A program made the position numbers and the translations under genes. From Astrocystis sublimbata (Eukaryota; Ascomycota; Sordariomycetes; Xylariales; Xylariaceae): DNA of 64,000 nucleotides. The notes under the pieces are model-generated. The model worked only from the letters and a program-made list of their open reading frames with translations, had not been told where the DNA came from and searched no databases. Positions 41,474-64,000 of the stretch are shown piece after piece; positions within the stretch are counted from its first letter, which is position 1; every line of letters begins with the position of its first letter. The DNA is taken from positions 142,917 to 206,916 of the forward strand of contig JAJNNY010000061.1 of assembly GCA_022453515.1 (NCBI GenBank), given 5' to 3'.

Positions 41474-42861
41474 ATGAAGCCCAGAAGATTTCACGGCCTG
41501 AAGCGGCCAGTAAGTCTCACACCCCCCACATCGAATTCGGGCCATCGCCGCCTCCGCCCAGACCGTCGCTGATAGCCATCGCGTGCACACAGAAACTGCG
41601 ACAGTCATGGAACAAGTACAACCTCTACAACATAGCCATGATGAGGGACCCCAGGATCGGCCAGAGCGACTCTGTCACCTTCTTCCAGCAGAAATGGAAA
41701 GCCAAGGGAATGCTGCGCACCTACCACGGCGAACACATCAACGAGAGCAAGTGGGAGCGCATGTTCAGCCGTCGCCTCCTGGGCGCCGTCAACATGCCCG
41801 CCGAGTACATGGCCCAGCACGACGGCTCCGAAATGGCCGCCGGGCGAGGCTCGGGAATAGATGAGGAGATTACAAACAAGCAAAGGGCAAAGACACCCGC
41901 CATCACACCCTACATGCAGATGACCTTTGCCCCCATGGAGAGGAGGCTGGACATCGCTGTGTTCCGCGCCATGTTCGCCAGCAGTGCGAGACAGGCGCGG
42001 CAGTTCTGCGTCCACGGCGCCGTCAAGGTCAACGGCAAGATCGTGCCTTACCCTGCTTATCGTCTCAACCCCGGTGATATGTTCCAGGTAGATCCTGACC
42101 GTGTCCTCTACGCAACTGGTCTGCCGAAACGACGCCCCCGCAAATTCAGACAACCATCCCAAGCTAGAAGAGAAGACGAAGAAGGAGAGGCCGCCACAGA
42201 AGAGAGCTCTGCGGCAGAGACCGAAGCGTCCGAGCCCGAAGCCCAAGCTGCCGAGGCTGAGCAAGACCCTGATACCACAGACGCACCCGAGCCCATCGCG
42301 GCTGACATGAAGCCCACACGGCTCCAGATCCAGCGCCTTACCGCGCAAGCGAAGTCCCTGCTTGCCGAATGGGATTCAAGCGTAACGCTGAAAAAGAGCC
42401 TGCGAAGTTTCATCAAAAATGCCAAACCCCTGCTCTCGCGCGCAGGCCGAGCCAACGCCTCGCCCACAGCAATAACCGACGAGCTTTCTACGCTTGTCGC
42501 TGAGCTCAATCTCGGGGTTGGCCAAGATAAAAAGGAAGCCAAGGAAGTCACATCCTCGGACCCAATCGACAGTCTGACCGATGCTGAGATGAAGACACTG
42601 GAGGAACGCATGGCAAAGCACATGCGCGAGGAAGAAGAGAACCCCTACGATCCTTCCAAGCCTTATGGTACACCCTGGAAGCCACGCCATTACATGTCTC
42701 CCTTCGCCTTCATCCCTCAGTACCTCGAGGTCAACCATAACATCTGCTCGGCCGTGTACCTGCGGCATCCCGTAGCGCGCAAGGGCTACGCCGAGGTCCC
42801 AACACCATATTCCGTCGACGTGAATCAGCTCGCCTTTAACTGGTATCTCAGAAGACGGTAG
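41474..42861 (+). CDS. Mitochondrial small ribosomal subunit protein uS4m (Nam9/MRPS4 family)
   Basis: Model: join(41474..41509, 41593..42861), 434 aa. A tiny 12-codon first exon (MKPRRFHGLKRP) in an excellent GCCACCATG context is spliced by GTAAGT to KLRQSWNKYNLYNI, the standard N-terminus of fungal mitochondrial S4. The S4 RNA-binding domain lies at about 129-190: RRLDIAVFRAMFASSARQAR, then VHGAVKVNGKIVPYPAYRLNPGD. A fungal-specific acidic, Ala/Glu-rich insertion follows (about 210-290). The conserved C-terminus has KPYGTPWKPRHYMSPFAFIP and SVDVNQLAFNWYLRRR. It is a primary 15S rRNA binder of the mitochondrial small subunit. The short first exon is easy to miss: the large ORF is open upstream but from a wrong ATG. 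Confidence 0.93.
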
Positions 42862-44448
42862 ACGGGTCTTATCGTCATTTATGAAACATCCCATAGTGAT
42901 GTTGATGGTGTTTCGGGATGCATAACAGAGGCCTCAGAGCCCCTCGATACACGCACTTCACCTCGGCCTCCATATACTAAACATACCGATATATTGCGGG
43001 CCTGTTCACTTGAGTACTAGAACATGTACTAATTAGAACTTTTATGGGTAGAGGGCAGGAGGGGAAGGGGAAAAGGGACGAAATCCATGTTGCAGCATCA
43101 TGACCCCGCCAACAATGTACCTACTCACCTATTTTCCCAACGGCCTGGACACGTTCTTGTCTGTGGTATGAGAAGACGATATGTATAAAATGTATCAATA
43201 CAAAAGTCAACCAACATTAAGACGTGGAACATGCGTGCCGATGAGGACGGGTCACTCACTACATTGCACACTCACCTATATGCGGTGATGCTGAGATGTT
43301 TTCAGTCATTCCCAAGCCCTGTTCTGAGGGCCGAGGGACCATATCGTCCGTCACCAATATCGTAATAAATGTATAGGTAGATATATATATTCTGGTTGTG
43401 ATTTTTAACCCCCCCCCCCCCCCCCCCCAACCCTGTTTCTCGATGTTGAGCTGAGCAACGCTGACTGCCCTCGTTTTCACGAGTTGTTTGAAGCCCAAAT
43501 GTACTCAACACCCACCCAGGATGTTGAGATTTACCATGGAATATCAGTTTTGCCCATGATACACTCACGGGACTTTAGAAACAGACTTCACTCAGTAAGG
43601 AATTGATTGGTTTACACAGTAGGTGCTTAGGCAAGGAAAGGAGAACACAGATGTTTTGTGACTAAAGAAACTAGAGCGCGGTAATATCGATAACCGGTGC
43701 GTTGTCAAGCACCACGAACACTCCCCTCAACTGATCGTAACAAGCCAACTGGACTTACGTATCAGCCAATCTGATGAGGCGAGCTATCCCTCCTAAAATA
43801 CAGGCATCTAGCAGCATGAATAATTCTGCTGCTAAACATTATCATTTTGTCCCTTTGCAACCCGCTCGCCCGTTCCTTACGCCCCGGTTATACGACCATG
43901 GAGCCCGATGGGCACGGAGATCGCCGATCTCGTGAGATATGTCGACTGAGCACACTAGCAAGCGAACAAGAGACCGTCAGGTATATCGAGAGATATGGCA
44001 GGGGAGTGTCCAGTCCCAAGGGCTTCTCCATAGACGCTGCGGCTTGATGCGCATCAGCCATGTGTCATAATTGCTTTCTCTCCGAGTATGAGTAGGAGAC
44101 GGGGCTCGAGCTAAGCAATAGGGATCTATGATGGTCGAAGAGACGCATTATTAATCTGCTGAACCTGACTAGCCCAAGTTTACCCTTTGGTGCAAGTTTT
44201 GAATTGGCTATTTGAAGCCATTCCCGAGGCACAGTATCCCCGTCATTTTGTACAACAATCGGCAATTGCCCAATTGCAATGGCTGTCCCGACATGATCTT
44301 CTTTTTGGGAGTATTAATTGAGAATTAAAAACAGAGGAGATGAATAGACATGGAGAAGTGAAGAAAAAAATGCGGCAGGCTGGTATAGAACAGGCATCAT
44401 CAAGGCTTGGGCGTGGCACGTATACTAGAGGAAGATGTTGCGTGAAGC
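42862..44448. other. Convergent intergenic region with C20 run
   Basis: 1.6 kb between the stops of uS4m and the septin. It contains a run of 20 C at 43409-43428 preceded by TA repeats. No gene is recognised. Confidence 0.6.
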
Positions 44449-46274
44449 CTAGCGTAGGGAGAAACCCTTGCGCTTGCCTTCCTTCTCTATAGGCTTGCCG
44501 CTCTCGACCCGGACTTTCTTGTCTTCGAGTTCTAACCGTTGTCGCTCCAACTGCTCCTTCATCTCGCGATGACGGGCGTATAACTCCTCTTCGCTCTGTT
44601 TCAGCTTGCTCTCTTTTTCTGAGACCTTCTGTTGGAAGACCATCTTCATCTCGGCCTCCATCTTCGCAAGCTTCTGTTCGTGAAGGGCACGTTCTTCCTC
44701 TTGCTTGACAGCAGGGTTGACTTCCTTGAAGACGCTGGGGTCTTGGGCAACACCCATAGCAGTAAGCTTGTCTGTTCGGTAGTTCTCGTACAGGTTGTTG
44801 TTCGTGTGCTCCTTGAGTTCTTCCATGTGTGTTCGAATGAGCATTTGGCGGAGTTTCACGAAATCACAGTGCTCCTCATTATCCACCTCGATGACACCCC
44901 AGGGGTAACGGCGGCCACGGACTTGACGTCCGTCAGCATTCGTGACCTCGTCATTGCTACCGACAACGGCAAAAGGCACTTTAGACATGATCTCATTGTT
45001 CTCGGCGATGGTTTCCTCATCATCTAACTCATAACGAGGGCCCTCGAAGATCTGGATACCGTGGTGTTTGATATCGGAGAGAATCTACGTATTACTGTCA
45101 GTACTAGGCCATAAAAGCAATATTACTGTGTCATCTTACTCGGGCCTTGAAGCTTGTGATCTCCTCATCGGTGAGAGTATCTGACTTGGCGATGACAGGA
45201 ATCAGGTTGACCTTGGTGTGCAGGCGCCGCATGACCTCGATGTCGAGAGGCTTCAATGAGTGACCAGTAGGCTGGATAAAGAACACACATGCGTGAATGC
45301 GGTTATCCACGATATTCGTGCGGTTGACCTTGTTCTCGCCATCAAGATAAGCGTCGTATCGCTGCTCGATGTTGTCGACAATAGGTCTCCAAGATTCATC
45401 GTTGTTGACAAAGTCACCAAAACCAGGCGTGTCAACGACGGTCAAACGAAGACGGACGCCGGCTTCCTCGATGTCGGCGCTGATTGACTGAATTGATACA
45501 GTCTTGGGTATTATGTCAAGGCTGGGTCCCTTTCGGTCCTTGGGAGGGTACAGCGAAGTGTTGAAGAGGGTGTTCACAAGAGTCGATTTTCCCAACCCAG
45601 ATTCACCTGAAATAAGTACCGTAAGTAGCTGGTCATTGATATCACGGTGCCATGGGATATTGGCTACGTACCAACAACCATAACATTGAAGTTGAACCCT
45701 TTTCGGACACTCTTGCGGTGCCATTGGTTGGGAAGATTCGCAAACCCGACGTAGCCAGTCAACTTTCTTCTAACAATGTTCTTGTTGTCATTGATGATTG
45801 GACCTGAAGAGCTGACTGTCGTCTTGATGTCAGAGACGTCGAGCGTTGGAGACGGGACCGAGGGTGCAAGCTGGACATCAGCCGGCACAGGCGACCCGTT
45901 CGTACCGTTTGCAGCTACCAAAAGTCAAGTTAGTCGCAGTTCTACACCTGTATGTCAAAACAGTTTTCCAGTCCGCCTATGCTCGAGTAGCAGGATGGCT
46001 AAATACCGGACATGGCCGCGGCATGGAACTCATCGTAGGAAATGGGCTTATGAGGTCCTAGTGAAGGAGTGTCCACGACCAGCATGCTTCTAAAGGGATG
46101 AATAGACGGCATCCCAATCTCCTGCCTGGGCATGCTGTTGGTCCTGACGGATAGGGGTGGCGTGCGGCTGGGTTCCCCGTGTTTGGTATAATCCGTCTCG
46201 GTCAGAACAGAGCCGCGGTCCAGGTGCACACTTCTGTTCCGTATCTTGCCGTGGCCGTTGAAAAATGGTGGCAT
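44449..46274 (-). CDS. Septin, Cdc3 class
   Basis: Model: complement(join(44449..45084, 45140..45606, 45672..45914, 46007..46274)), 537 aa, phases consistent. The N-terminal extension of about 145 residues precedes [21 protein letters not shown], the polybasic membrane-contact region before the GTPase core. G1 is GESGLGKST (about 171-179), G3 DTPGF, G4 AKSD (about 310). The septin-unique element reads [22 protein letters not shown]-terminal coiled coil (about 430-520, Glu/Lys-rich heptads) ends with KRKGFSLR. Septins form hetero-oligomeric filaments at septa and growing tips. Assignment to the Cdc3 class rests on [12 protein letters not shown], the coiled coil and length; it was not tested by phylogeny. 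The start of exon 1 (ATG 46274) is less certain than the rest. Confidence 0.9.
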
Positions 46275-49200
46275 GATATTGTGCAGATGCTTCGGTTGTA
46301 TGTTGTTTTTGGTTGTGGGAAAAGTTTTGCTCCTAACAATGGTCGACTATTCCAAAGAACCAAAAAGGAAACGCCAAAAAGAGATAGATCACCCCAAGAA
46401 ACGAGCGCGTTGGTGATGTTTCATCCAAGAAACCAGAGACATTTGTTGACCGAGCAGACGGGCCTCTGCGTCGCCCCGCTGGAACAGGCAGACGCGCGTC
46501 TCAGGTTGGTCAAACTGGAGTTCGGTGGGAAGCGACGATGTTGGGGTCCCAGTGTATTGCAGGTCCATTGGTGGTCCATTGGCGACAGCGACAGTTGCAG
46601 AAGAACATATGTGCTTACCCATTATGAATAATTCAAGGAATGTCGCGATCTAAAAGATGTGGCCACGGGGAAGGCGCGACGACAAATCCTACAAGGACAC
46701 AGAGAAGGTTAGCGTATATTCGACCATGTGGCTATTCGAGCAGTAGAGTGAGGTTGAAGATTCCGGTCGCGATGCGATACAGCGAATCAGTCGTCCACCG
46801 CAGCTCAAGTCGGCAGGCACATGTGCGGCACCACGGACAGTCCTCACTGCCCAAAGGCGCGTGAGGACGTCGCCAGCGAAGAGGTCATGCAGTAAAGTAG
46901 CCAGAAGGTGACAACATGCCGGGCGCCCGACGCGTGGCGGTCGCGACAGGTGCGGATAGGGATATTGGTCGTGGTTCACGTACCGAAACGATGATGCTGC
47001 TGCTTCCGACTCGCGTGTTGAGTCGTGTCAATAGCGTTGCAGGTCACTGGATACCGGGGAGAGGAGAACGAGCGATCTGGCGTTGTGATGGGGGAGGCAG
47101 GCGAGCAGGCAGGCAGGCAGGCAGTTGCGTGTGGTGATGGTGCTATCATGCCCCGAGTACCAGACAGACACGTAGTGAGTGAATGATTAAACTTTGGAAC
47201 TGCAGTCCAGTTCGAGCCGAAGGGGAAGAGAAGGAGTTGAACAAAATTAGGCCTGGATGGGATTGTGGATAAAGGAGATGATGGGATGCCCAGCCTGGTT
47301 TGTCTGTCTGGCTCGTCCTGGCACAATACCTACAGGCAGGGCACCTAAGCTGGTTAGGTACCTACTTGGACACCTTGGGTGAAAAATGAGCCGTCACAGC
47401 ACTAGCAGTTTACGGTACAGAACAGGATAGGTGTTGGGGGTAACCTGTCTGTAGGATACCTATGTAGGCAATTCATTACCGGATTCTAACTAGCCCGGAC
47501 AGGATCCGGATATACCTCGCTACCTCCATGTGAGGTCTCTGCACCGCTCAGGGTCCATTCCATGGGAGGATGAACCATATTTCCACTGGAAGAGACACCC
47601 GAACACCCAGAGGGAGGCCCCAACAGTGGGCATCCTCAGAGAGCGCAGCTACTGTGGGTATGTACCTACTTAGGTAAGTACGTTACATACACGTTCAGTA
47701 CCTACTGTACCTAGGTAGAGTTCAGTAGCTCAAAAGGGGCTCCTGGCGTTCCTGGCCCTGGCCAACTAATTTTTACTTTGAAATTCCCCTGTCCCCGATC
47801 ACAACTTAGCGTGCTGGGGGGTCCGGTGCTCCCCACAAGCAACCTGAGGCAGATTACACTACCAAGCTTTACTTACCGAATAATACTGTAGGTCTATTCT
47901 GTGAAGAAATAGATGCTGCATCTAGCTTTCTCTACCAGATACCGTAGGTCGGTATGTTAACTGACTTACATGTGCTCTCGTGAGGTACTTCCAGTGGTAG
48001 TATATTTGTGCAATTCAGAATAACCTGACCAGTTCAACAACCGGTCATACAATATACATGTACCTTTAGGTAGTATGTAAAAGTCACGTACCTAAGTACT
48101 CTAGAAGTAGTGTGATCATGGACACAAGGATCCGTGCTGCATGAGATGCAACAAAAAAGGCATGACGGCACGCCGAAGAAGCCCATGATTGGACAGCACT
48201 TCTCTGCAGCTCAAACCAAGAGCTTGCGCTACCCACCGTAATTAAATACTCAGAGATCACAGTACGCGTATACTACCAAGCAACCACACGATGCCACGAT
48301 GCCACGAACCCATCACCATGCTACATCATGCCGAAACTGCAACTCCGAGGACTTCACGATCTAAGACTACCAGCAGTCGAGAACAGGGCAACAGGTCCAA
48401 AGCCATGATAGTGCGAGTACGGCGTGCAGCTAGCACAGCTCCCCTGGGTGCTTGCACCAGGGACCTGCTGGACTTTGCTGTACCAATCCCCGCGTCTTCC
48501 ACGGATGGGTACATCAGGTAAGTACCTAGAGGTGGCTGTCGTTGCCCCTGGACCAATAGAACCCCAGGTGACTTCTATTGAAGAGGTTGTGCGGATGATG
48601 AAAATCATGCTGTAAACCTGGCGATTGCCTACCTACCTACCTAGTAGGAAGGCCGCAAACAATCGAGCATCGAGCAAATAAGCAAATAAGCACCTGGGAA
48701 GGTGGTCCGTTCTGCTTGCTGATGAAACGCGGGTAAATGAATGTCTTGTTTCAACAGAAACTCTGAATGACCGCAAGAGCTACTCGTACAGCAAGGCAAG
48801 TGCAAGTGCGAACACGGCCGCTTGGTCCTTTGTTCCCCCAAGCAGGCTATTAGGCACCGTCTTGGACAGTTGAATACATCCACGATGTAGGTCTGTAGGT
48901 CCCACGTGGTGTTGCCCAATTCTTCATACCTACCTACCTAGGTAGGTAATGTGATGTTAATGTACCTGTCCAGGAAATACCACATGCTGGGTTAGGTACC
49001 TAGGTACGCAGTCAAGAGGAAGCAGCAGGCGTGCAAGTAAATATAAACACTGATATTAGGTAGGTACGTTGTAATTATTACATACTAAGTAGCAAACGTA
49101 CTCGTAGGTGCATACCCGGGCATTCTCGTGTCCAGATGCAAATATGGCTGATGCCCTCGTATTTCTGCAGGGGTTCCCTGACTGGGCAATTGGGTGGGCA

Positions 49201-51318
49201 GCTAGCTGCAAACACACCTGACTAGGAGATAGGTATGGGGCATCGCAATTGGCTTGCATGGCACGTGAGATTAAACTTCATTGTCTGGTCTGGTCTGGTC
49301 TGGTCTTATACTCCAAACTTAGGATTAGATAAGGTAGCGCTCATCTCATAGGCGACAGCAATTCATTAGGTGTGTTAGACAGACAATCTGTTGATAAGCC
49401 AGCCTTCAATCTGCTCCAACCTACCTACCTAAGCTTCTTGCTTGAACCACTTGTCCATACATATCTTCGATTATCACGTCTATGCACCCGCAGCGGCTTG
49501 CTGCACTGACAGGCTGTCAGATCGTATCGGCCAATTGTCTTCGTTTTCTGGTCCCTTGTGACACATGTCACGCTCGACGAACGACGATACCCGACACCAA
49601 CTAGGTAGATGTTGAAAGCGATAACACAGGGCAGCCGTTCCCACATACCAGTGTCATAGTACGTAGTATACTGTACCATCCTAGGTTACTAGGTAGTCAA
49701 ATAGGATGCAATGTAGATATAAAGCATATGTGATAGTCTACCTACCAGACCATGTACGACCCAAACAACAACATCTCCTAGGTGTGTGTAGCCCTGATCG
49801 ACGTCAGAGATCAAACTACAGCGTCAAGCTAGCAAGCAACATATATTGTGACACGCCAAAGACTCGCCAATCAAACACCGCAAACTTACTCACATAACCC
49901 TGAGTCTAGCTGTTGCATTTTGTCGTCCCTTCGTTTCTCAACAAGGGGCTGCATGAGCATCTCAGTACCGAACGTGATTTGCGGTGGAAGAGTAATGTAA
50001 GTAGTAGATAGACACACAGGGAAACGTCGGACCGAACGCCGCCCACAAGTGCAGGGACGATCATCGAATCGGGCACCAGCAGCTCCATCGCAAAAACGGG
50101 TTCACGTACGAAGGTATTTACGAAGCATTTACAAAAAACCATGATGGCCAGATGGCCAGATGACCAGAGACTCTCTCAAAAGAAAAGAGAAGAAAAAAGA
50201 GGGCGGGGGGCATGATTACGGCACGAACACGACGGTAGCATCATTAACCGTAATCTTGAGCGGCTTGATCAAACGCGTCTACGACAGTGTCTCAGCCAGA
50301 CATTTTTTTTGGTACGGATATCAGTTTGAGACACACAGGCAGGGATGGCCGTGAGGCGACGCAAACGTGGCGCGTGTTGCGAAGGAAGTACTGCCGATGG
50401 TGCCTCTAGTTGAAAACAAATAACGTAGCTGTTCCGGCTAACATGACTTCGAGGAAGGACCATCCTCAACCCAGGACAGGCACGGGAAAGCCGTGCCATA
50501 AGCCACCCACTGGACAAGCACATGAGGTGTTTCCATATGATCATATAGATCTCCCGGCGGAGCACCGCCGCTGGCGAGAAACGGGGGGCCCGAACAAACC
50601 CCAAAGAAACCGAAGCGCAATGAGGCTCGGACAGACCATCACGAACACGCCCGGCTTCTGATATAGAAAACGGAGGCCAGCATGGCCCAGAAGTGGGTAA
50701 AGACAACGGGGTGATCCTTAATGAGACCTGGCTGCCCATGAGTCGGAATTCATTCATTGGATGTGCATTCTTGGCTGATTGCCCGACGCTTTGTCTAAGG
50801 TCTGATTTTTCGAGATAAGGTCTCAAATCGATGCTCTCGAACAAAATTATTTCGGTTCTCTCTTCAGCTCGAGCCTCGCAGACTTGGTATGCCGTACGGA
50901 TGTCGAGGGGAAATAGTATATGCTTGGACTCAAGGACTCAGGCGTGTTAAACTCGTTGACAGCGAGCCACTCCCCAAGAGCTGAATATCCGGGTTGATTG
51001 CAATCAGGTACAATCTCATATGCTTTATAGTAGTGGCAGTCTAGTATGACGATCACAGTGACAGAAGCATGGGAGAATGCCCACTCCCATATACGTTGAA
51101 GGGAAATAAAATACCTAAGCATCTTGGTACGTGAGGGGAATTGGGCAGCAATAGAGATATCAAGTCTACCCGAAGCCTCCCACCTCACAGGCGGGGTTTG
51201 CTCGCATCTAGCTATGCACATCCATTAGTTCCTTCTTGATTTTGAAGTAGGGGAAATCAAATCATGAAAAGTATGCGTCGACACATGTTGTCCAAGCTCG
51301 AACTACTTTTGGTTGCGC
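46275..51318. other. 5 kb spacer with simple repeats, no supported gene
   Basis: Upstream of the septin and extending to the mapped start of the left palindrome arm. It contains AGGC tetramers near 47098-47123, TGGTC x5 at 49284-49305, and many TACCTACCTAGGTAGG motifs (47355, 48625, 48925-48945, 49055). Minus-strand ORFs at 50269-50844 (191 codons) and 50847-51221 show no motifs or splice logic and are not called. Confidence 0.5.
49284..49305. repeat. TGGTC pentamer repeat
   Basis: Four to five perfect tandem copies of CTGGT in intergenic DNA. Confidence 0.9.
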
Positions 51319-51824
51319 TTTCGGGGATGGTAATCGTAGCAAGGCATACATGCTCACATAGAAGGAACAACGAACCGTTGACTTGAATCGTTTCACTGCA
51401 TGATCAATTCCCTAAACCACTTGCCGCAAGCACCTCCTTGTGTGTTATTTGGGTGAACCATCCGCAATTGCTACCGGCAGTGGGAATAAGCCCAGGATGG
51501 CCTTTGCAACAAGAACATGCCAATTTAAGTTGTCCGAGAGCTAGAGAACTCCCGATGAAGCAGGGCGTGTGGGACAATATTATGTTTTTGTAAAAGCGCA
51601 GTATCGCAATCCCGACACCGACCCAATGCATGAAGCTCAAAAAATATTTCCATCTTATTGTATTCTTATTCCCTAAAGCATGTATTTGGATGTACTTCAT
51701 TTGAAAGCGCCAATTTTCTCGTGTCCCAGTGGGTATATTTCACCCAGTTGTAGGCCCGATCACACTAAAATCCCATCCCATCCGAAGTAATGAAGCACGA
51801 GATATTGCGCCTCGGCGCCAGTGC

Positions 51825-52950
51825 TTATTGCCCGCCAGTGACGAAGTCAAACTGACGGTGTCCCACGGCAGAGTACTGCAGCGTGCAAAGTTAGTGATAT
51901 TTGTAAGTAATGAGCGTGACGGGTGTTTGTGTTTACTTACGCCCGGTACGAAAGCAGTGCCCCAGGGCTCGAGCCAGGTGTCTATATCACCATCCGCTTA
52001 GCATGTGCCAAAACATGTAAGATAGGCCATGTCAATGAACTTACCATAGGTAACCTCGGGCTTAGTCTGAGCGAACCAGGTAAAGGTCTTGTTCGTTCCA
52101 GAGAGAAGTTCCGTCTGCGGAAACTGCTTCGCAACAGCATCTGAATCTCGAAAGTCAGCTTATTATTGCCACCTGCATGGTCAAATCGAGGGTTCCAGGA
52201 ATTTGAAAACGATATGTTGGTCTGCATTCGATTATTGGAAATGATGTGAAATTTCCTACCATAAGACGACTGGGAAACACCGTTCACTGGGCCGCGGTAA
52301 TCCTGTCCAATACTCTGAACGATGACAGCTTCCTCGAGCTCGAAGTAATTGGCAATACTCGAGGACCCGTGCAGGGCGATGGACTATAAATTTTGCACAC
52401 TGAAGTCAGTAGTGTCCTTCGCAACCCCATGATTCAGGAGCTTGTGGATTTTCGCAAGCAGATGAGCCTACGATGACATTCCGCGCTTCTTGACGATATA
52501 TGCCCCGAGGGGAAATCGAAAACTCCGGCGGCTTACCTGAAAAACTTTCCGTACGCGTGAAGGCTCCCAGTCCTTCCCAGTGGGGTGTTCGCTCAGCCAC
52601 GTACGAGCACCGATGGCGCCGTCGATCTCGAAGCGCTTGTCTTTGCTAACCCAGCGCGAGCCGGGCGTCATGTCCCAGCCCAGGTCGTGCAACATGGTGG
52701 CGATCGCATGCACTTCGAGATCGACGTTCTTCTTCAAAGTTTCGTTGGCGTTGATCATGGCAGCACCGAACAGCCACGACCGCATCTGATGCGAGTACAA
52801 GTAGTCTGGGAACTCCTTGATCATGGCCTGGGTATCGCGCACGATCTGGGTGTCGATCACCTCGACTCCGGCTATCGTTGTCATGGGCTTAGAGGGGCAC
52901 GCAGCGGCCGCGACGGCTGTGGCCAAGGCAAGGAGGGAGAATAACTGCAT
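51825..52950 (-). CDS. Secreted HD-domain hydrolase-like protein, left-arm copy, five exons
   Basis: Model: complement(join(51825..51875, 51941..51981, 52045..52140, 52260..52383, 52537..52950)), 241 aa, mirrored exactly in the right arm. Residues 1-17 (MQLFSLLALATAVAAAA) form a classic signal peptide. H54 (YSHQMRSW), the H88-D89 pair (ATMLHDLGWD) and SIALHGSSSIANYF after intron 1 match the metal-binding HD superfamily layout seen in fungal cyanamide-hydratase-like proteins. The C-terminal exons give TFTWFAQTKPEVTY and DTWLEPWGTAFVPG. With the signal peptide it may act in the secretory pathway or outside the cell; the substrate is unknown. The one-base difference to the other copy lies in intron 1 (153 versus 152 bp) and does not affect the protein. 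Confidence 0.8.
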
Positions 52951-55335
52951 TTTGACGGGTTGGGGGTTACCGAGGCAGTAAGCGTATTGCAAGCAGAATT
53001 TGGTGATGTGATTAGAAGAAGAGGTGATGGTATAATCTTCCTGTTGCCTTTCAATGAACCTTTGAGACCTTATATACAAAATTCAGCCTCGATACCCCTC
53101 CATAAGATATCAGTGAGCCGTGAAGCGCATCACAGATGATTTCAAAGCACAGCCCACCAGGACTCATGGTTGACCCCCAGGTCGGACCGACCTTTCGCTT
53201 TCAGTATACTACAATTTGAAATCTTCAGAAGCTTGACAAACAGTATAACAACCTCTACCCTAGTAAACAGCCGGTCTTTGGCTCCTCTGTGGAAGGTGGA
53301 AGGTATACTGATACGCCTTATGTCTATCTGTGTTTTTTCTTCCAAATCATCATCTGGCTGACCATTTTCAACCGGGGAATACTTCAAGGATAGATAGTCA
53401 CCTCGCATATTTATAACATGCTGTATTAAGGTCTCCATTCCCTTTCGGGTCAATTTAGCCTTAGTCATCGTTGTATAGCTTGCGCAAAAGTGGTCGGAAC
53501 CGTTGAAGCACGCAGGTCTTGCCGTCACTTACCATGTTGCGGGTTAGGTATTGTTACGCCTCATGAGTGCATATGCACGTCCGTATTTGGCAACATTATC
53601 ATCAGCTATCTGGGGAAGTACCGCATTGGTCATCAACTTATGGCATGGTGGACGAGGTGGGCCTCTGGGGTAATGGAGTGTGCTATGGTAGCGAACTGAG
53701 TTAGCATAGCATATTACAGTCCGGCATTGAAGTTATCATCTGATCTGGTACTTTTGCCTTCCACCTTGAGATATCCATCCAATGTGTCGTGTGTCAGCAA
53801 GTCCAAATCCGGTGAAGACGATGTCAGAGCGTAGTATATATTGTTGCCCGCGTATCTGATGCAGAAAAAAAGACAACAGTTAACGCACAATGTTACAAGT
53901 TTTCATTTCGCTGTCAGACATGGCGAGGTGATAACTAGAGTGTAAAGGCTCGATTTGCTGGGTATGCTGCGTGGGGCGAAAAGTTCAGTGGAAGCATAAG
54001 CTTTTCGGCTATTTATCTGGAATATCCCGTTTGGACGCCGCCTGGCATGGTAGTATTCTGTTCTGAATGCGACCAATATACACGCATCGATATGGGTTTC
54101 GGTGACTGTACATGCATGAGCGAGATGCATGTCGCCAGCGAGCTTCCAAAGGTAAAACCTGGCATGGTGCGTGGAATGTAACTGGAATAGTGATAGTAGG
54201 AAAGGCTCATTTAGTTTTCACAATCCCTACCATGGTCCGGAGGTCGTTGACGTACGCATGTGCCTTCACATTTGAGCTTGTCCCTATGTAAAACACCATT
54301 TAATATTTCTGGTTACCTCCGCTAATACAGCCGAGTATGATAAGTCCGAAGGGGTCGCGATCATCTTTTCAAATCATTGTTAATCAGATGTGGTTTTGAA
54401 ATTGATCGTTATTGCGGCTAGATGGATCTCAACCGAGCACTACATGATGAGTACGTAGTGAACGAGTGGTGTTGTGAATGAATGCTTTATCGTGTTGGAC
54501 TGAGATTTCTAGTCTGCATTCATGACAGGTATTTGGGGGTACTGTAAGTACTCAATACGTAAAGAGCTAGAAAAGGAATGCTTGAAAACTTTCTGAAGGA
54601 AACGTTTGGTTATCACGTAAATCTCAGTCGACGAATGCGCGACATATAATTCTTAACCGGAAGGAATCTACCGGGCCTGCCACGAGTGCCTGTGCTTCTG
54701 TACGATAGCGAAGGCCTTCGCCCACCCCTGATGGAATCCCCAAAAGAGGCCTGGCATGTGATGACAATTGCTAAGAAGATATATGTTACAATTGATCCAC
54801 ATATTCACCGCACCGTAAAATACATGTAGGACATATTATTATGGAAGGTGGTCAAGCCTCGAATAGGCATGCGTGTCATGATGAGTTCCTGGGTCAAGCG
54901 CAAGCTGAGTGTCATTAGCATATTGATCTCAGCGGCGTGCAGCACAATCTACAAGCTTCGAAGTAGACGGGATGCAGCATTTTCACCGAGAACCCCTATA
55001 GTGTAAGAATTGAGAGTGGGTGTGATAACGCACATAAGATAATTCATTTGGGTAAGTAGGTAGGTATCAGCGAGCAGGTTGAATCAAGCGAGAAAAGGCT
55101 CGGGCCTCAAATGCAAAATGCGATACTGGCCGCTTTGGCCTTCGGCTATTCCAGCCTCAGTTTTTTTCTTCTTGTTTTTAATGATTTATTTGTTTTTAGC
55201 TCCGCATACTCCTTATCAGTACAAAATTCCACCCAGGAGTTCCTGCAAAGCCAGCAAAGGAAGTTACTGTACTGGATGAATATATTTCACATGCGTCCCT
55301 ATTTGTGTTTGTGGTCTAGTCAAGCAGACATCGGA
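52951..55335. other. Left-arm spacer between HD and PPR genes
   Basis: 2.4 kb. It holds the mirror of a possible small gene (see 61852-62178 on the right arm; here 53142-53468 on the minus strand) and of a possible coding exon (mirror of about 61468-61605). Otherwise no gene is recognised. AT-rich 3' flank of the PPR gene. Confidence 0.5.
53070..53077 (-). promoter_or_regulatory. TATA box of left HD-domain gene
   Basis: GTATATAA on the minus strand, about 120 bp before the ATG at 52950, followed by a CT-rich leader typical of fungal 5' UTRs. Confidence 0.55.
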
Positions 55336-57295
55336 TTAGGCAACTAGTGCTGTTGCCTTCAAAGGCTCTTCTTCAAATGACTCTACATGTGACACGGACG
55401 CTTCCAGATTGCTCGCATATTGTGCCTTTACGGACATCAACAATTTGATATCATCCTTGCTCAGTAATTGTCGTCGATGGCATTCTCCGAATAGGTTCCC
55501 AAACCTCGGGTCGCGGTTTTGAACGCATCGCCGCAGAAGAGCCATTGCCGAGTGTTTACTCATCCACCACGACTCAGGTATGTTGGAAGGCGACCGATCG
55601 CGCATCATCCCGAGGTAACGAAAAGCTGCATCATAATTGTATTGCATTGAACTGATTCGGATGAAATGGTCATAAATAGACTTGGTAGGCTTTAGAGAAA
55701 AGGCATCCATCTCGGCTTCAAGAAAACTCATAGATTTCTTTAGCGTGCAATGCTGCAGTAGAACATCGAAGGTTTCGAGGTCTGGCCCGGTTATGCAGAC
55801 CTGGCGAACGGTCCTGTACATATCAAAAGCAACTTTGAAGCCGCCGTGGGCCGCAGTGGCTTCCAAAACGACGTTGAAAGCGGCGGGTGGAACAGAGTAA
55901 TGCGCCTTCAGCTGGTGGAGAAGTGCAAGTGCTTGATCTGTCAGCTGCGAGGAATGGCGGAGCAACTGGAATATCGGTCGCGTAGTCGACAAGTCAGGAG
56001 AAAGGCCTGCCTTGGCCATTATGCAGAGGACGGTGAGCCCCTTGCGTAGATCATCATGCCGCAGGTGAACATGCATCAAAGCCTCGTAATGATGTAGACT
56101 CAGTTTCACCCCGCGGGCGGAGAGCACATGTATCGCCCCCATGGCTAAAGCCACGTCTCCGTGCATGGAGGCCGTATTCAGCACCCGCAGTAACACACCA
56201 TCAGGCGGGTGGATGTGGCTAGGTGCAACTGAATGGTCCCATACAAGTTTGACACCTGGGTAGAAGGCGTCCCTGCTGAACATATCGAGCAGAAACTGCC
56301 AGACATTCGGAGAGGGCGGGACGCGCTTCACGATATCGACTAGCCTCTGACGGTGCTTGAGTATGGCCATGGTTTCTTCATGGAAACCCAACTCACCAAA
56401 TGTGTAGAGGAATAAGTCAGACAGCCACGTGGGCACGTTGACGGGGGCTCTATTCAACTCCTCCAGTCTGGAAAAGGCCAACTCATACTGGCCGTCGCGT
56501 AGGAGGCCGATGATGATGTTGATCTCGGCACTCGGTGGCAAGGCGTACCATCGATTCATCATATCGTGGAGGACCTGCGCTCGCAGAAGGTAGTCGGGAT
56601 GAACGGCCGTCACCTGCATGGGGGAGGGGGGAGGATTAGCCGAAGGCTACCAAGAGCGAGCGAAGGGCTCAGGGGCTGACCTCGAGAAGGGCGTGGTATA
56701 TCTGTGGTGTCGTGGGGACACTGTGGCTATGGATCTCCCTAAGAAGCTGGGCGGCCACCTTGGCCGAGCCGTATTGCTTGCTGACATTGGCTTTGATCAG
56801 GCTTTCGTAGAGAGCGGCATTGGGCCTCTCCCGCCTCTGCGCCACGAGATACTCGACAAGCCGCGTGACGGGATGATAGGTGTCCTCTGCGCCCTGCAGC
56901 TCCTTCAGAGCAGCGTAGATGGTGCGGGTCGGTATTTTGTCCACCTTGGGATTGAAGTGCCGGAGCACGGCGTCGGGGATCCAGGGACTTCGCTTTGCCA
57001 ACCGTGCTAGGTAAGCGATGCGCGATTCTTCAGGGGTGTTTCTCTTCTTGGGCCCGGGCCCGGGCTCGGGCTTTTGCTCGGTATCGGGTTCGGTCGTGCG
57101 ATCGATCTCATGGTTGGTTGGCGCGGCGGCGAGGCTGTGTTGTCGTCGCCATTGAATACTGCGGCTGGCGAGCGACGGTGCTGATGGCGGGCGAGGGGTG
57201 GTCCATTGGTGGAATGGCTTGGAGAGTGTTGCGACGTCAATTAAGGGGCACAGGCACCGCCAAAGTCCGTCGACGACAATGCGATCTCGGGGCAT
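55336..57295 (-). CDS. Pentatricopeptide repeat (PPR)-like mitochondrial protein, intact left-arm copy
   Basis: Model: complement(join(55336..56613, 56681..57295)), 630 aa. The 67-bp intron (GTCAGC...CATGCAG) joins IYHALLE to VTAVHPDYLL. The N-terminus is basic and Arg/Ser-rich (SRSIQWRRQHSLAAAP), as expected for mitochondrial import. From about residue 110 the protein is a chain of helical hairpins of about 35 residues with PPR-type spacing, such as TRTIYAALKELQ, NAALYESLIKANVS, PPAAFNVVLEATAAHGGFKVAFDMYRTV and LETFDVLLQHCTLKK. Fungal PPR proteins act in organelle RNA stability or translation. The intact frame here, contrasted with the broken copy opposite, suggests this is the functional or correctly sequenced version. 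It points away from the hairpin centre, its ATG about 350 bp from the symmetry axis. Confidence 0.82.
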
Positions 57296-58026
57296 GGGTG
57301 TGGCTGGCTCATAGGGACGCCGGGCGCAAAAATCTGAAGCAATTCCATGATCAGACGGGACCTGCCAAGCCGGGATGTCTAAGTAAATACCTGAGATACA
57401 GGCGAGCCGGGGTACCTAGGTACTTGCACCTCCGTAGCGGGCGAGCCGGGGCCGTTAGTCCAATCCCACTTGGCCGCCAGCTGGGGTGGATCTCAGTCAC
57501 CTAAGGTACCTCTATGTAGCAGGGTTGGCAAATTAGTACGTACTAATTTTATACTACACTTTAGTATTTTAGTGACTACAGTGTAGTACGAGTACATACT
57601 ACAATTAGTACTGATCTTAGGTACTACACTTTAGTATGTACTAAATGTAGTATATTAATAGTGATTAATTGTAGTAATTAGTACATACTAAAGTGTAGTA
57701 CCTAAGATCAGTACTAATTGTAGTATGTACTCGTACTACACTGTAGTCACTAAAATACTAAAGTGTAGTATAAAATTAGTACGTACTAATTTGCCAACCC
57801 TGCTACATAGAGGTACCTTAGGTGACTGAGATCCACCCCAGCTGGCGGCCAAGTGGGATTGGACTAACGGCCCCGGCTCGCCCGCTACGGAGGTGCAAGT
57901 ACCTAGGTACCCCGGCTCGCCTGTATCTCAGGTATTTACTTAGACATCCCGGCTTGGCAGGTCCCGTCTGATCATGGAATTGCTTCAGATTTTTGCGCCC
58001 GGCGTCCCTATGAGCCAGCCACACCC
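57296..58026. promoter_or_regulatory. Shared head-to-head promoter region around the palindrome axis
   Basis: 731 bp between the two mirrored PPR start codons. Both promoters are the same sequence in opposite orientation, with the AT-rich hairpin in the middle. It includes GGTACCTAGGTAC-type motifs at 57411-57424 and their mirror. No other gene is seen; the 100-codon mirrored ORFs here are shadows. Confidence 0.5.
57520..57802. mobile_element. AT-rich 283-bp hairpin at palindrome centre, hAT-MITE candidate
   Basis: Stems 57520-57644 and 57678-57802 are perfect 125-bp inverted repeats around a 33-bp asymmetric loop (57645-57677). The ends read CAGGGTTGGCAA, like hAT-superfamily terminal repeats (CAGGGnTGGCAA type). 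The inside is dense in TAGTAC/GTACTA words and far more AT-rich than the flanks. The flanks are CTATGTAG and CTACATAG, which are mirror-paired rather than directly repeated, so no 8-bp target-site duplication is visible; this is expected if one true flank has been replaced by the other's mirror. The outer limits are set by the hAT-like end and the composition change, because pairing continues into the arms. Confidence 0.5.
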
Positions 58027-59985
58027 ATGCCCCGAGATCGCATTGTCGTCGACGGACTTTGGCGGTGCCTGTGCCCCTTAATTGACGTCGCAACACTCTC
58101 CAAGCCATTCCACAATGGACCACCCCTCGCCCGCCATCAGCACCGTCGCTCGCCAGCCGCAGTATTCAATGGCGACGACAACACAGCCTCGCCGCCGCGC
58201 CAACCAACCATGAGATCGATCGCACGACCGAACCCGATACCGAGCAAAAGCCCGAGCCCGGGCCCGGGCCCAAGAAGAGAAACACCCCTGAAGAATCGCG
58301 CATCGCTTACCTAGCACGGTTGGCAAAGCGAAGTCCCTGGATCCCCGACGCCGTGCTCCGGCACTTCAATCCCAAGGTGGACAAAATACCGACCCGCACC
58401 ATCTACGCTGCTCTGAAGGAGCTGCAGGGCGCAGAGGACACCTATCATCCCGTCACGCGGCTTGTCGAGTATCTCGTGGCGCAGAGGCGGGAGAGGCCCA
58501 ATGCCGCTCTCTACGAAAGCCTGATCAAAGCCAATGTCAGCAAGCAATACGGCTCGGCCAAGGTGGCCGCCCAGCTTCTTAGGGAGATCCATAGCCACAG
58601 TGTCCCCACGACACCACAGATATACCACGCCCTTCTCGAGGTCAGCCCCTGAGCCCTTCGCTCGCTCTTGGTAGCCTTCGGCTAATCCTCCCCCCTCCCC
58701 CATGCAGGTGACGGCCGTTCATCCCGACTACCTTCTGCGAGCGCAGGTCCTCCACGATATGATGAATCGATGGTACGCCTTGCCACCGAGTGCCGAGATC
58801 AACATCATCATCGGCCTCCTACGCGACGGCCAGTATGAGTTGGCCTTTTCCAGACTGGAGGAGTTGAATAGAGCCCCCGTCAACGTGCCCACGTGGCTGT
58901 CTGACTTATTCCTCTACACATTTGGTGAGTTGGGTTTCCATGAAGAAACCATGGCCATACTCAAGCACCGTCAGAGGCTAGTCGATATCGTGAAGCGCGT
59001 CCCGCCCTCTCCGAATGTCTGGCAGTTTCTGCTCGATATGTTCAGCAGGGACGCCTTCTACCCAGGTGTCAAACTTGTATGGGACCATTCAGTTGCACCT
59101 AGCCACATCCACCCGCCTGATGGTGTGTTACTGCGGGTGCTGAATACGGCCTCCATGCACGGAGACGTGGCTTTAGCCATGGGGGCGATACATGTGCTCT
59201 CCGCCCGCGGGGTGAAACTGAGTCTACATCATTACGAGGCTTTGATGCATGTTCACCTGCGGCATGATGATCTACGCAAGGGGCTCACCGTCCTCTGCAT
59301 AATGGCCAAGGCAGGCCTTTCTCCTGACTTGTCGACTACGCGACCGATATTCCAGTTGCTCCGCCATTCCTCGCAGCTGACAGATCAAGCACTTGCACTT
59401 CTCCACCAGCTGAAGGCGCATTACTCTGTTCCACCCGCCGCTTTCAACGTCGTTTTGGAAGCCACTGCGGCCCACGGCGGCTTCAAAGTTGCTTTTGATA
59501 TGTACAGGACCGTTCGCCAGGTCTGCATAACCGGGCCAGACCTCGAAACCTTCGATGTTCTACTGCAGCATTGCACGCTAAAGAAATCTATGAGTTTTCT
59601 TGAAGCCGAGATGGATGCCTTTTCTCTAAAGCCTACCAAGTCTATTTATGACCATTTCATCCGAATCAGTTCAATGCAATACAATTATGATGCAGCTTTT
59701 CGTTACCTCGGGATGATGCGCGATCGGTCGCCTTCCAACATACCTGAGTCGTGGTGGATGAGTAAACACTCGGCAATGGCTCTTCTGCGGCGATGCGTTC
59801 AAAACCGCGACCCGAGGTTTGGGAACCTATTCGGAGAATGCCATCGACGACAATTACTGAGCAAGGATGATATCAAATTGTTGATGTCCGTAAAGGCACA
59901 ATATGCGAGCAATCTGGAAGCGTCCGTGTCACATGTAGAGTCATTTGAAGAAGAGCCTTTGAAGGCAACAGCACTAGTTGCCTAA
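58027..59985 (+). pseudogene. PPR-like gene, right-arm copy, frameshifted
   Basis: Mirror of the left PPR gene: join(58027..58640, 58708..59985). One base is missing at 58113 (single C where the other copy has two G on its own strand). The frame therefore leaves the PPR protein after about residue 29 and stops at 58314, giving a 95-residue product. Exon 2 (58708-59985) is identical in translation to the left copy, so the break is recent or a sequencing error. No ATG lies between the frameshift and the intron in the original frame (an apparent start at 58320 is TTG). Confidence 0.75.
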
Positions 59986-61467
59986 TCCGATGTCTGCTTG
60001 ACTAGACCACAAACACAAATAGGGACGCATGTGAAATATATTCATCCAGTACAGTAACTTCCTTTGCTGGCTTTGCAGGAACTCCTGGGTGGAATTTTGT
60101 ACTGATAAGGAGTATGCGGAGCTAAAAACAAATAAATCATTAAAAACAAGAAGAAAAAAACTGAGGCTGGAATAGCCGAAGGCCAAAGCGGCCAGTATCG
60201 CATTTTGCATTTGAGGCCCGAGCCTTTTCTCGCTTGATTCAACCTGCTCGCTGATACCTACCTACTTACCCAAATGAATTATCTTATGTGCGTTATCACA
60301 CCCACTCTCAATTCTTACACTATAGGGGTTCTCGGTGAAAATGCTGCATCCCGTCTACTTCGAAGCTTGTAGATTGTGCTGCACGCCGCTGAGATCAATA
60401 TGCTAATGACACTCAGCTTGCGCTTGACCCAGGAACTCATCATGACACGCATGCCTATTCGAGGCTTGACCACCTTCCATAATAATATGTCCTACATGTA
60501 TTTTACGGTGCGGTGAATATGTGGATCAATTGTAACATATATCTTCTTAGCAATTGTCATCACATGCCAGGCCTCTTTTGGGGATTCCATCAGGGGTGGG
60601 CGAAGGCCTTCGCTATCGTACAGAAGCACAGGCACTCGTGGCAGGCCCGGTAGATTCCTTCCGGTTAAGAATTATATGTCGCGCATTCGTCGACTGAGAT
60701 TTACGTGATAACCAAACGTTTCCTTCAGAAAGTTTTCAAGCATTCCTTTTCTAGCTCTTTACGTATTGAGTACTTACAGTACCCCCAAATACCTGTCATG
60801 AATGCAGACTAGAAATCTCAGTCCAACACGATAAAGCATTCATTCACAACACCACTCGTTCACTACGTACTCATCATGTAGTGCTCGGTTGAGATCCATC
60901 TAGCCGCAATAACGATCAATTTCAAAACCACATCTGATTAACAATGATTTGAAAAGATGATCGCGACCCCTTCGGACTTATCATACTCGGCTGTATTAGC
61001 GGAGGTAACCAGAAATATTAAATGGTGTTTTACATAGGGACAAGCTCAAATGTGAAGGCACATGCGTACGTCAACGACCTCCGGACCATGGTAGGGATTG
61101 TGAAAACTAAATGAGCCTTTCCTACTATCACTATTCCAGTTACATTCCACGCACCATGCCAGGTTTACCTTTGGAAGCTCGCTGGCGACATGCATCTCGC
61201 TCATGCATGTACAGTCACCGAAACCCATATCGATGCGTGTATATTGGTCGCATTCAGAACAGAATACTACCATGCCAGGCGGCGTCCAAACGGGATATTC
61301 CAGATAAATAGCCGAAAAGCTTATGCTTCCACTGAACTTTTCGCCCCACGCAGCATACCCAGCAAATCGAGCCTTTACACTCTAGTTATCACCTCGCCAT
61401 GTCTGACAGCGAAATGAAAACTTGTAACATTGTGCGTTAACTGTTGTCTTTTTTTCTGCATCAGATA

Positions 61468-61605
61468 CGCGGGCAACAATATATACTACGCTCTGACATC
61501 GTCTTCACCGGATTTGGACTTGCTGACACACGACACATTGGATGGATATCTCAAGGTGGAAGGCAAAAGTACCAGATCAGATGATAACTTCAATGCCGGA
61601 CTGTA
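61468..61605 (+). other. Possible last coding exon of an unrecognised gene
   Basis: After a strong pyrimidine tract and acceptor (TTTTTTTCTGCATCAG) an open frame reads YAGNNIYYALTSSSPDLDLL and continues to a TAA at 61603-61605, about 45 residues with natural-looking composition. The preceding exon was not found. The left arm has the mirror copy. Confidence 0.25.
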
Positions 61606-61851
61606 ATATGCTATGCTAACTCAGTTCGCTACCATAGCACACTCCATTACCCCAGAGGCCCACCTCGTCCACCATGCCATAAGTTGATGACCAATGCGGT
61701 ACTTCCCCAGATAGCTGATGATAATGTTGCCAAATACGGACGTGCATATGCACTCATGAGGCGTAACAATACCTAACCCGCAACATGGTAAGTGACGGCA
61801 AGACCTGCGTGCTTCAACGGTTCCGACCACTTTTGCGCAAGCTATACAACG

Positions 61852-62178
61852 ATGACTAAGGCTAAATTGACCCGAAAGGGAATGGAGACCTTAATACAGC
61901 ATGTTATAAATATGCGAGGTGACTATCTATCCTTGAAGTATTCCCCGGTTGAAAATGGTCAGCCAGATGATGATTTGGAAGAAAAAACACAGATAGACAT
62001 AAGGCGTATCAGTATACCTTCCACCTTCCACAGAGGAGCCAAAGACCGGCTGTTTACTAGGGTAGAGGTTGTTATACTGTTTGTCAAGCTTCTGAAGATT
62101 TCAAATTGTAGTATACTGAAAGCGAAAGGTCGGTCCGACCTGGGGGTCAACCATGAGTCCTGGTGGGCTGTGCTTTGA
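61852..62178 (+). CDS. Small hypothetical ORF (108 aa), mirrored in left arm
   Basis: ATG at 61852 to the TGA at 62176-62178. It begins MTKAKLTRKGMETLIQHVIN and ends NHESWWAVL; composition is plausible, with a charged middle and a hydrophobic stretch (VEVVILFVKLLK). The frame is open further upstream only from a GTG. No family is recognised. It lies just upstream of the HD gene's TATA box, so it may be chance or a small neighbour. Confidence 0.3.
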   Translation: MTKAKLTRKGMETLIQHVINMRGDYLSLKYSPVENGQPDDDLEEKTQIDIRRISIPSTFHRGAKDRLFTRVEVVILFVKLLKISNCSILKAKGRSDLGVNHESWWAVL

Positions 62179-62242
62179 AATCATCTGTGATGCGCTTCAC
62201 GGCTCACTGATATCTTATGGAGGGGTATCGAGGCTGAATTTT

Positions 62243-62250
62243 GTATATAA
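62243..62250 (+). promoter_or_regulatory. TATA box of right HD-domain gene
   Basis: GTATATAA, 120 bp before the ATG at 62370, identical to the left-arm copy. Confidence 0.55.
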
Positions 62251-62369
62251 GGTCTCAAAGGTTCATTGAAAGGCAACAGGAAGATTATACCATCACCTCT
62301 TCTTCTAATCACATCACCAAATTCTGCTTGCAATACGCTTACTGCCTCGGTAACCCCCAACCCGTCAAA

Positions 62370-63494
62370 ATGCAGTTATTCTCCCTCCTTGCCTTGGCCA
62401 CAGCCGTCGCGGCCGCTGCGTGCCCCTCTAAGCCCATGACAACGATAGCCGGAGTCGAGGTGATCGACACCCAGATCGTGCGCGATACCCAGGCCATGAT
62501 CAAGGAGTTCCCAGACTACTTGTACTCGCATCAGATGCGGTCGTGGCTGTTCGGTGCTGCCATGATCAACGCCAACGAAACTTTGAAGAAGAACGTCGAT
62601 CTCGAAGTGCATGCGATCGCCACCATGTTGCACGACCTGGGCTGGGACATGACGCCCGGCTCGCGCTGGGTTAGCAAAGACAAGCGCTTCGAGATCGACG
62701 GCGCCATCGGTGCTCGTACGTGGCTGAGCGAACACCCCACTGGGAAGGACTGGGAGCCTTCACGCGTACGGAAAGTTTTTCAGGTAAGCCGCCGGAGTTT
62801 TCGATTTCCCCTCGGGGCATATATCGTCAAGAAGCGCGAATGTCATCGTAGGCTCATCTGCTTGCGAAAATCCACAAGCTCCTGAATCATGGGGTTGCGA
62901 AGGACACTACTGACTTCAGTGTGCAAAATTTATAGTCCATCGCCCTGCACGGGTCCTCGAGTATTGCCAATTACTTCGAGCTCGAGGAAGCTGTCATCGT
63001 TCAGAGTATTGGACAGGATTACCGCGGCCCAGTGAACGGTGTTTCCCAGTCGTCTTATGGTAGGAAATTTCACATCATTTCCAATAATCGAATGCAGACC
63101 AACATATCGTTTTCAAATTCCTGGAACCCTCGATTTGACCATGCAGGTGGCAATAATAAGCTGACTTTCGAGATTCAGATGCTGTTGCGAAGCAGTTTCC
63201 GCAGACGGAACTTCTCTCTGGAACGAACAAGACCTTTACCTGGTTCGCTCAGACTAAGCCCGAGGTTACCTATGGTAAGTTCATTGACATGGCCTATCTT
63301 ACATGTTTTGGCACATGCTAAGCGGATGGTGATATAGACACCTGGCTCGAGCCCTGGGGCACTGCTTTCGTACCGGGCGTAAGTAAACACAAACACCCGT
63401 CACGCTCATTACTTACAAATATCACTAACTTTGCACGCTGCAGTACTCTGCCGTGGGACACCGTCAGTTTGACTTCGTCACTGGCGGGCAATAA
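62370..63494 (+). CDS. Secreted HD-domain hydrolase-like protein, right-arm copy, five exons
   Basis: Model: join(62370..62783, 62936..63059, 63179..63274, 63338..63378, 63444..63494), 241 aa; all exons close in phase (introns 152, 119, 63, 65 bp). Same protein as the left-arm copy: signal peptide 1-17, H54, H88-D89, and a C-terminus ending GHRQFDFVTGGQ. Reading through intron 1 would give a 171-residue form ending in a short foreign tail, so intron retention would truncate the protein before its last HD-fold helices. The intact frame in both arms means neither copy shows decay. Confidence 0.8.
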
Positions 63495-64000
63495 GCACTG
63501 GCGCCGAGGCGCAATATCTCGTGCTTCATTACTTCGGATGGGATGGGATTTTAGTGTGATCGGGCCTACAACTGGGTGAAATATACCCACTGGGACACGA
63601 GAAAATTGGCGCTTTCAAATGAAGTACATCCAAATACATGCTTTAGGGAATAAGAATACAATAAGATGGAAATATTTTTTGAGCTTCATGCATTGGGTCG
63701 GTGTCGGGATTGCGATACTGCGCTTTTACAAAAACATAATATTGTCCCACACGCCCTGCTTCATCGGGAGTTCTCTAGCTCTCGGACAACTTAAATTGGC
63801 ATGTTCTTGTTGCAAAGGCCATCCTGGGCTTATTCCCACTGCCGGTAGCAATTGCGGATGGTTCACCCAAATAACACACAAGGAGGTGCTTGCGGCAAGT
63901 GGTTTAGGGAATTGATCATGCAGTGAAACGATTCAAGTCAACGGTTCGTTGTTCCTTCTATGTGAGCATGTATGCCTTGCTACGATTACCATCCCCGAAA
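63495..64000. other. Downstream flank of right HD gene
   Basis: 506 bp to the window end, mirrored at 51319-51824. A 98-codon ORF from ATG 63619 has a Cys/Trp-rich odd composition and no motif; it is not called as a gene. Confidence 0.5.

Follow-up and report, generated by a model that had tools for sequence, protein, structure and literature searches.

Our findings indicate that the giant palindrome closing the window analysed here, a stretch of 64,000 nucleotides of the Astrocystis sublimbata genome (189 contigs, 42.6 Mb) carried by the contig that we call C148 (C148:142917-206916), is very probably a fold-back artefact seated in the AT-rich hairpin of a hAT-like element. This reading draws on the overlap of C148 with other contigs of the locus, on a linear alternative through the same site, on an intact element with its TSD in that linear sequence, on a different fold in contig C84 and on the recurrence of folds at other copies of the element. 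The first-pass annotation had put forward a real giant palindrome, perhaps isochromosome-like, with a fold-back misassembly as the alternative; the former finds no support, since contig C176 crosses the axis without a second arm, while the latter is borne out by the contig end that coincides with the end of the arm and by the linear course of C176.

The inverted repeat itself was readily recovered by alignment, with the two arms (6326 and 6323 nt) and the 33-nt loop lying where they had been placed from the sequence alone (Table 1), and the likeness of the arms is far beyond chance. Only three columns differ in about 6.3 kb, every one of them a 1-base gap. At each of these sites a short run has one base fewer in arm 2, and both C176 and C84 have the base that arm 1 shows, so that all three differences appear as 1-base deletions confined to the terminal arm. 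Window base 64000 corresponds to base 206916 of C148, the final base of that contig, and arm 2 stops there. The suggestion of a possibly much larger palindrome, drawn from a match that persists up to the window end, thus fails; the contig stops exactly one arm-length beyond the axis, an outcome that the first-pass annotation had itself named as the mark of an assembly fold-back. Comparison with phage records gave no match.

Table 1. Coordinates of the features discussed in the text (window positions unless a contig is named)
Feature	Position	Strand	Remarks
Arm 1, judged genuine	51319..57644	+	Inside 46475-57675, 0 differences from C176
33-nt loop at the fold	57645..57677	.	C176 identical up to 57675, departs at 57676-57680
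Arm 2, judged artefactual	57678..64000	-	Reversed arm 1 minus three single bases; stops at the C148 end
Arm differences	52481/62838, 54154/61166, 57208/58113		1-base gap at each
Stretch common to the C176 and C84 ends	43282..57680	+	Both contigs stop exactly at 43282
Left 8-bp TSD	57512..57519	+	CTATGTAG; right copy visible in C176; C148 mirror is the left copy inverted
Left part of the element, truncated at the fold	57520..57677	+	Whole in C176:104245-105059; TIR CAGGGTTGGCAAATTAGT
Mirrored left end of the element	57678..57802	-	Very probably created by the fold
Complete elements	C176:104245-105059, C88:22185-22722, C146:1042888-1043766		AT-rich core, perfect 8-bp TSDs
PPR gene	55336..57415	-	ORFs 55336-56646 and 56669-57415; repetition in arm 2 judged artefactual
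HD-like ORF	52468..53082	-	Resembles the cyanamide-hydratase family, below cut-off; repetition in arm 2 judged artefactual

The contigs that share the arm provide the linear alternative. A 901-bp probe taken from the outer edge of the arm was found complete in C148, C176 and C84, together with a fourth match, again in C148, that is partial because the arm ends there. The end of C176 aligns in reverse orientation to window 43282-57680 over 14,406 positions with 99.85% identity. Differences occupy 23 columns. The last 3.2 kb of C176 account for 21 of them (43334-46474), the 11.2 kb from 46475 to 57675 contain none, and the remaining two, 57676 and 57680, mark the point at which C176 departs from the palindrome and passes the axis into other sequence without a second arm. 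C84 outscored C176 over 43300-46400, which fits with the tail of C176 as the error-rich one. The arm occurs once in the portion of C176 examined (85001-119291), and the flank beyond the axis (C176:102400-104240) has a single match genome-wide. The third contig, C84 (16,272 bp), tracks C176 beyond the axis of C148 and then folds about 235 bp further in, its arms being 96.4% alike with 43 mismatches and 71 gap openings, a divergence that is read-error-like. Hence the locus has no single fixed axis, with the folds of C148 and C84 some 235 bp apart and C176 unfolded. On the other side, window 40000-43280 matched the genome once, in C148, and therefore the shared stretch has one known left flank; searches of the genome contigs found none that joins a second left flank to 43282. 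One linear chromosome, formed by C148 followed by reversed C176, explains the contig ends seen.

In C176 the axis sits within an intact hAT-like element of 815 bp, bounded at both ends by the terminal inverted repeat CAGGGTTGGCAAATTAGT and on both sides by a perfect 8-bp TSD, CTATGTAG. The presence of the TSD on both sides shows that the flanks in C176 adjoined before insertion, and the intact element with its perfect TSD makes the order in C176 the ancestral one. The palindrome of C148, in turn, holds only the left end of the element and its TSD, twice and in mirror image. Identical 8-bp TSDs were seen in all three uninterrupted copies, namely those of C176 (CTATGTAG), C88 (CCTAGCCC) and C146 (GCCAGGTG). 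Members of the hAT superfamily are characterized by 8-bp TSDs and by terminal inverted repeats beginning with CAGGG, and we take the traits of the axis element to be those of hAT-type non-autonomous elements. It resembles such MITE-like elements in its TSDs and terminal inverted repeats and differs from them in a very AT-rich core (GC 0.13 over 250 bp starting near the axis in C176). In single-stranded form the element is far more prone to fold than its shuffled versions (z=-8.0, 20 shuffles). Left of the axis, the piece 57520-57661 can also fold on itself (z=-4.3), and a slightly shifted piece, 57560-57680, folds more weakly (z=-2.1, with 4 of 200 shuffles equally good).

We propose that reads or library molecules turned back within the AT-rich, hairpin-forming part of the 815-bp element, and that the assembler then extended C148 along the returning strand until support failed, at what is now the contig end, whereas the real chromosome passes from C148 through the element into reversed C176. 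The fold would have originated outside living cells, in library preparation, amplification or sequencing, where the AT-rich hairpin could have caused snap-back priming or a switch of strands; the evidence is at the level of the assembly. With 3 differences in 6.3 kb, arm 2 is a consensus of good quality, and the fold was therefore probably backed by several error-prone reads or by accurate ones, a point that weighs against an artefact. Three other sources of the fold were considered and discarded. The loop is no sequencing adapter, since its bases up to 57675 are present in C176 within ordinary sequence. The hAT transposase mechanism forms a hairpin on the flanking DNA, and a hairpin of that kind is out as well, the fold lying 125-158 bp inside the element, away from its edge. 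A chromosome-end structure was likewise discarded: TTAGGG is the telomere motif, and tandem TTAGGG units, even two in a row, are absent from the window, from the opening 10 kb of both C148 and C176 and from the final 4.3 kb of C176.

Folding at this element is not limited to the locus of the palindrome. A search with most of the element returned at least 50 matches, 29 candidates being scored. Five insertions were recognised through their TSD, those of C176/C148/C84, C88/C13, C146, C29/C35 and C85/C109, the TSD of the last two pairs being visible on one side only. Four of these five are interrupted within the element by the end of a contig or by a terminal fold, the exception being C146, which runs through it without a fold in the stretch examined. 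C13 opens with a terminal palindrome at 1-83 (90.5%), and the same insertion is linear in C88; C85 carries one at 1-627 with arms 95.6% alike, and its partner C109 stops 62 bp inside the element. Base 1 mirrors base 18989 in C29 and base 20164 in C35, which, for unbroken arms, gives lengths of about 9.5 and 10.1 kb, each palindrome having been seen in separate stretches. These two contigs represent one locus with two fold points, the arms of C35 are 97.3% alike, and their terminal palindromes are probably the same artefact. Including C27 (1-2569) and C171 (1-593), whose palindromes lie near a 270-bp repeat belonging to the element, terminal palindromes occur at the starts of C29, C35, C85, C27, C171 and C13. 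At a distance of up to 50 bp from the axis, the GC content was 0.11-0.27 in the nine cases measured, versus 0.51 for the window. The two locus pairs with a one-sided TSD are unlikely to be halves of a single insertion, for their TSDs differ (TAGTGTAC and TAGTTGTA); were they one, the count would become three of four insertions instead of four of five.

Under a model of random contig ends (378 ends in 42.6 Mb, with a 400-bp target), the chance of ends or folds at four of five insertions is p ~8e-10, or ~2e-7 when the insertion that led here is omitted, values that are only rough because folds were counted like contig ends; in C148, C29 and C35 the actual contig end is several kilobases away from the fold. 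Because the element search is what revealed the folded ends, they form a selected sample. As a weaker control, none of eight contig-end stretches of 2.5-10 kb each (L009, L010, L014, L015, L063, L064, L065 and L069) showed a terminal palindrome by inverted self-match, a comparison that folds further in would escape; control contig C108 contains one internal inverted pair of 153 bp (84%).

That the arm is a fixed inverted duplication in the main chromosome, or that the chromosome end is folded in an isochromosome-like manner, we regard as extremely unlikely. The arms are indeed long and nearly identical, the sequence left of the axis folds on itself as described above, the shifted piece more weakly, and in yeast, according to parts of one account, inverted repeats drive fold-back and dicentric rearrangements (PMC10164571). 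Against this stand the linear C176, which passes through the same site after 11.2 kb of identity, the two fold points of C148 and C84 at one locus, the confinement of the differences to arm 2, the end of the contig at the end of the arm, and the lack of TTAGGG runs of at least two units in the window, at the start of C148 and at either end of C176. Hardly credible at all is the notion of a true duplication of the arm, dispersed or segmental, with loci in C148, C176 and C84, the palindrome being one of these. The complete matches of the 901-bp probe in three contigs, along with the fourth, partial one in C148, could suggest it, but C176 and C84 both stop at 43282, a second left flank was found in no contig, 40000-43280 was matched once, and the contig ends fit one linear chromosome.

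A mosaic in which, in part of the nuclei of the culture, the AT-rich core of the element breaks and fold-back synthesis repairs the break, leaving linear and folded forms side by side, would accommodate the recurrence of folds at the core of the same element across several loci, as well as the coexistence of linear and folded contigs at two insertions (C176 with C148 and C84, and C88 with C13). The variation of the fold points among contigs of one locus, the divergence of the arms in the manner of read errors (96.4% in C84, 97.3% in C35 and 95.6% in C85) and the fold-back artefacts documented for long-read libraries in parts of the Breakinator report (PMC12870357) nevertheless make it very unlikely. 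We attach as small a probability to its corollary that the core of the element is a real fragile site in the living fungus, giving rise at several insertions to giant palindromes of varying axis beside intact chromosomes.

The preferred reading, a fold-back artefact, has close counterparts among known systems. Fold-back reads occur in long-read libraries, and fewer than half have searchable sequence at the fold, as stated in parts of the Breakinator paper, whose authors also warn of assembly-graph tangles arising from them (PMC12870357). Like the folds analysed here, those described in these parts are near-perfect palindromes in which the fold leaves little sequence unaligned, or none, are often adapter-free and affect sites covered unbroken by other sequence (PMC12870357); the present case differs in resting on assembly-level evidence and in the recurrence of folds in one AT-rich element family, and neither "at-rich" nor "hairpin" occurs in the main text of that paper. 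Parts of the Pacasus study report inverted repeats in 40-50% of the reads from amplified Arabidopsis samples, versus 0.5% in an unamplified control (PMC6218980). Such palindromes of whole-genome amplification are likewise inverted repeats, in their case created in amplified long-read libraries; the repeated folding in one element suggests here a sequence-dependent cause. The fold-back of yeast chromosomes at inverted repeats shares with our case, as far as parts of PMC10164571 describe it, the inverted repeats at the axis and an inverted-duplication outcome, and differs in that here a linear form exists and nothing points to a fold arising in cells. A literature search found no genome paper on Astrocystis sublimbata that mentions PacBio.

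Regarding the genes inside the arms, the PPR gene and the HD-like gene, each present twice in mirror image, most likely exist only once. The claimed PPR gene proved sound: its main ORF (55336-56646) matches PF23276 (E=7.1e-25), PF13041 and PF17177 in Pfam, and is 100% identical, across 98% of its own length, to a 630-aa NCBI protein from Astrocystis sublimbata (Xylariaceae). The ORF upstream of it (56669-57415) is without a Pfam match of its own and contains the start of that protein. The cluster to which the protein belongs has three members from three contigs, and in addition a shortened model derives from the error-rich 16,272-bp contig C84. As for the secreted HD gene of the first-pass annotation, membership of an HD family is plausible, and secretion is represented by a signal-peptide-like hydrophobic stretch following a Met, as judged by eye. 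This ORF matched the cyanamide-hydratase HD family TIGR03401 of NCBIfam with E=5.9e-7 and 29 bits, below the cut-off of 110; a Pfam search gave no match, and a search of solved structures returned matches at chance level only. A septin gene at window 44449-45769 on the minus strand (PF00735, E=1.4e-68 and 2.2e-40) falls in the stretch carried also at the ends of C176 and C84, and therefore probably has multiple annotations. Ordinary genes thus seem to be represented by spurious additional copies among the public proteins of the species. At several loci a transposon with an AT-rich hairpin can make a long-read assembly fold back, which imitates giant palindromes and breaks contigs; it is useful to check draft fungal genomes for this before any long palindrome is reported.

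Two further observations concern contigs related to the element. In C171 a 3-kb probe was found at 1000 (+), 22994 (-), 29390 (+) and 51410 (-), with 99-100% identity, and once in C27. Over C171:1-56000, units of some 14 kb follow one another in alternating orientation; their axes were computed to lie at roughly 13.5, 27.7 and 41.9 kb, and a fold is present at about base 297, a pattern that looks like serial fold-back and may also represent a dumbbell-ended linear molecule. The 270-bp repeat derived from the element (probe ~426-697) appeared with 92-96% identity in C171, C27, C43, C107, C108, C179 and C188, and in five of these seven contigs (C171, C27, C43, C108 and C188) it lies no more than about 3.5 kb from the end of the contig.
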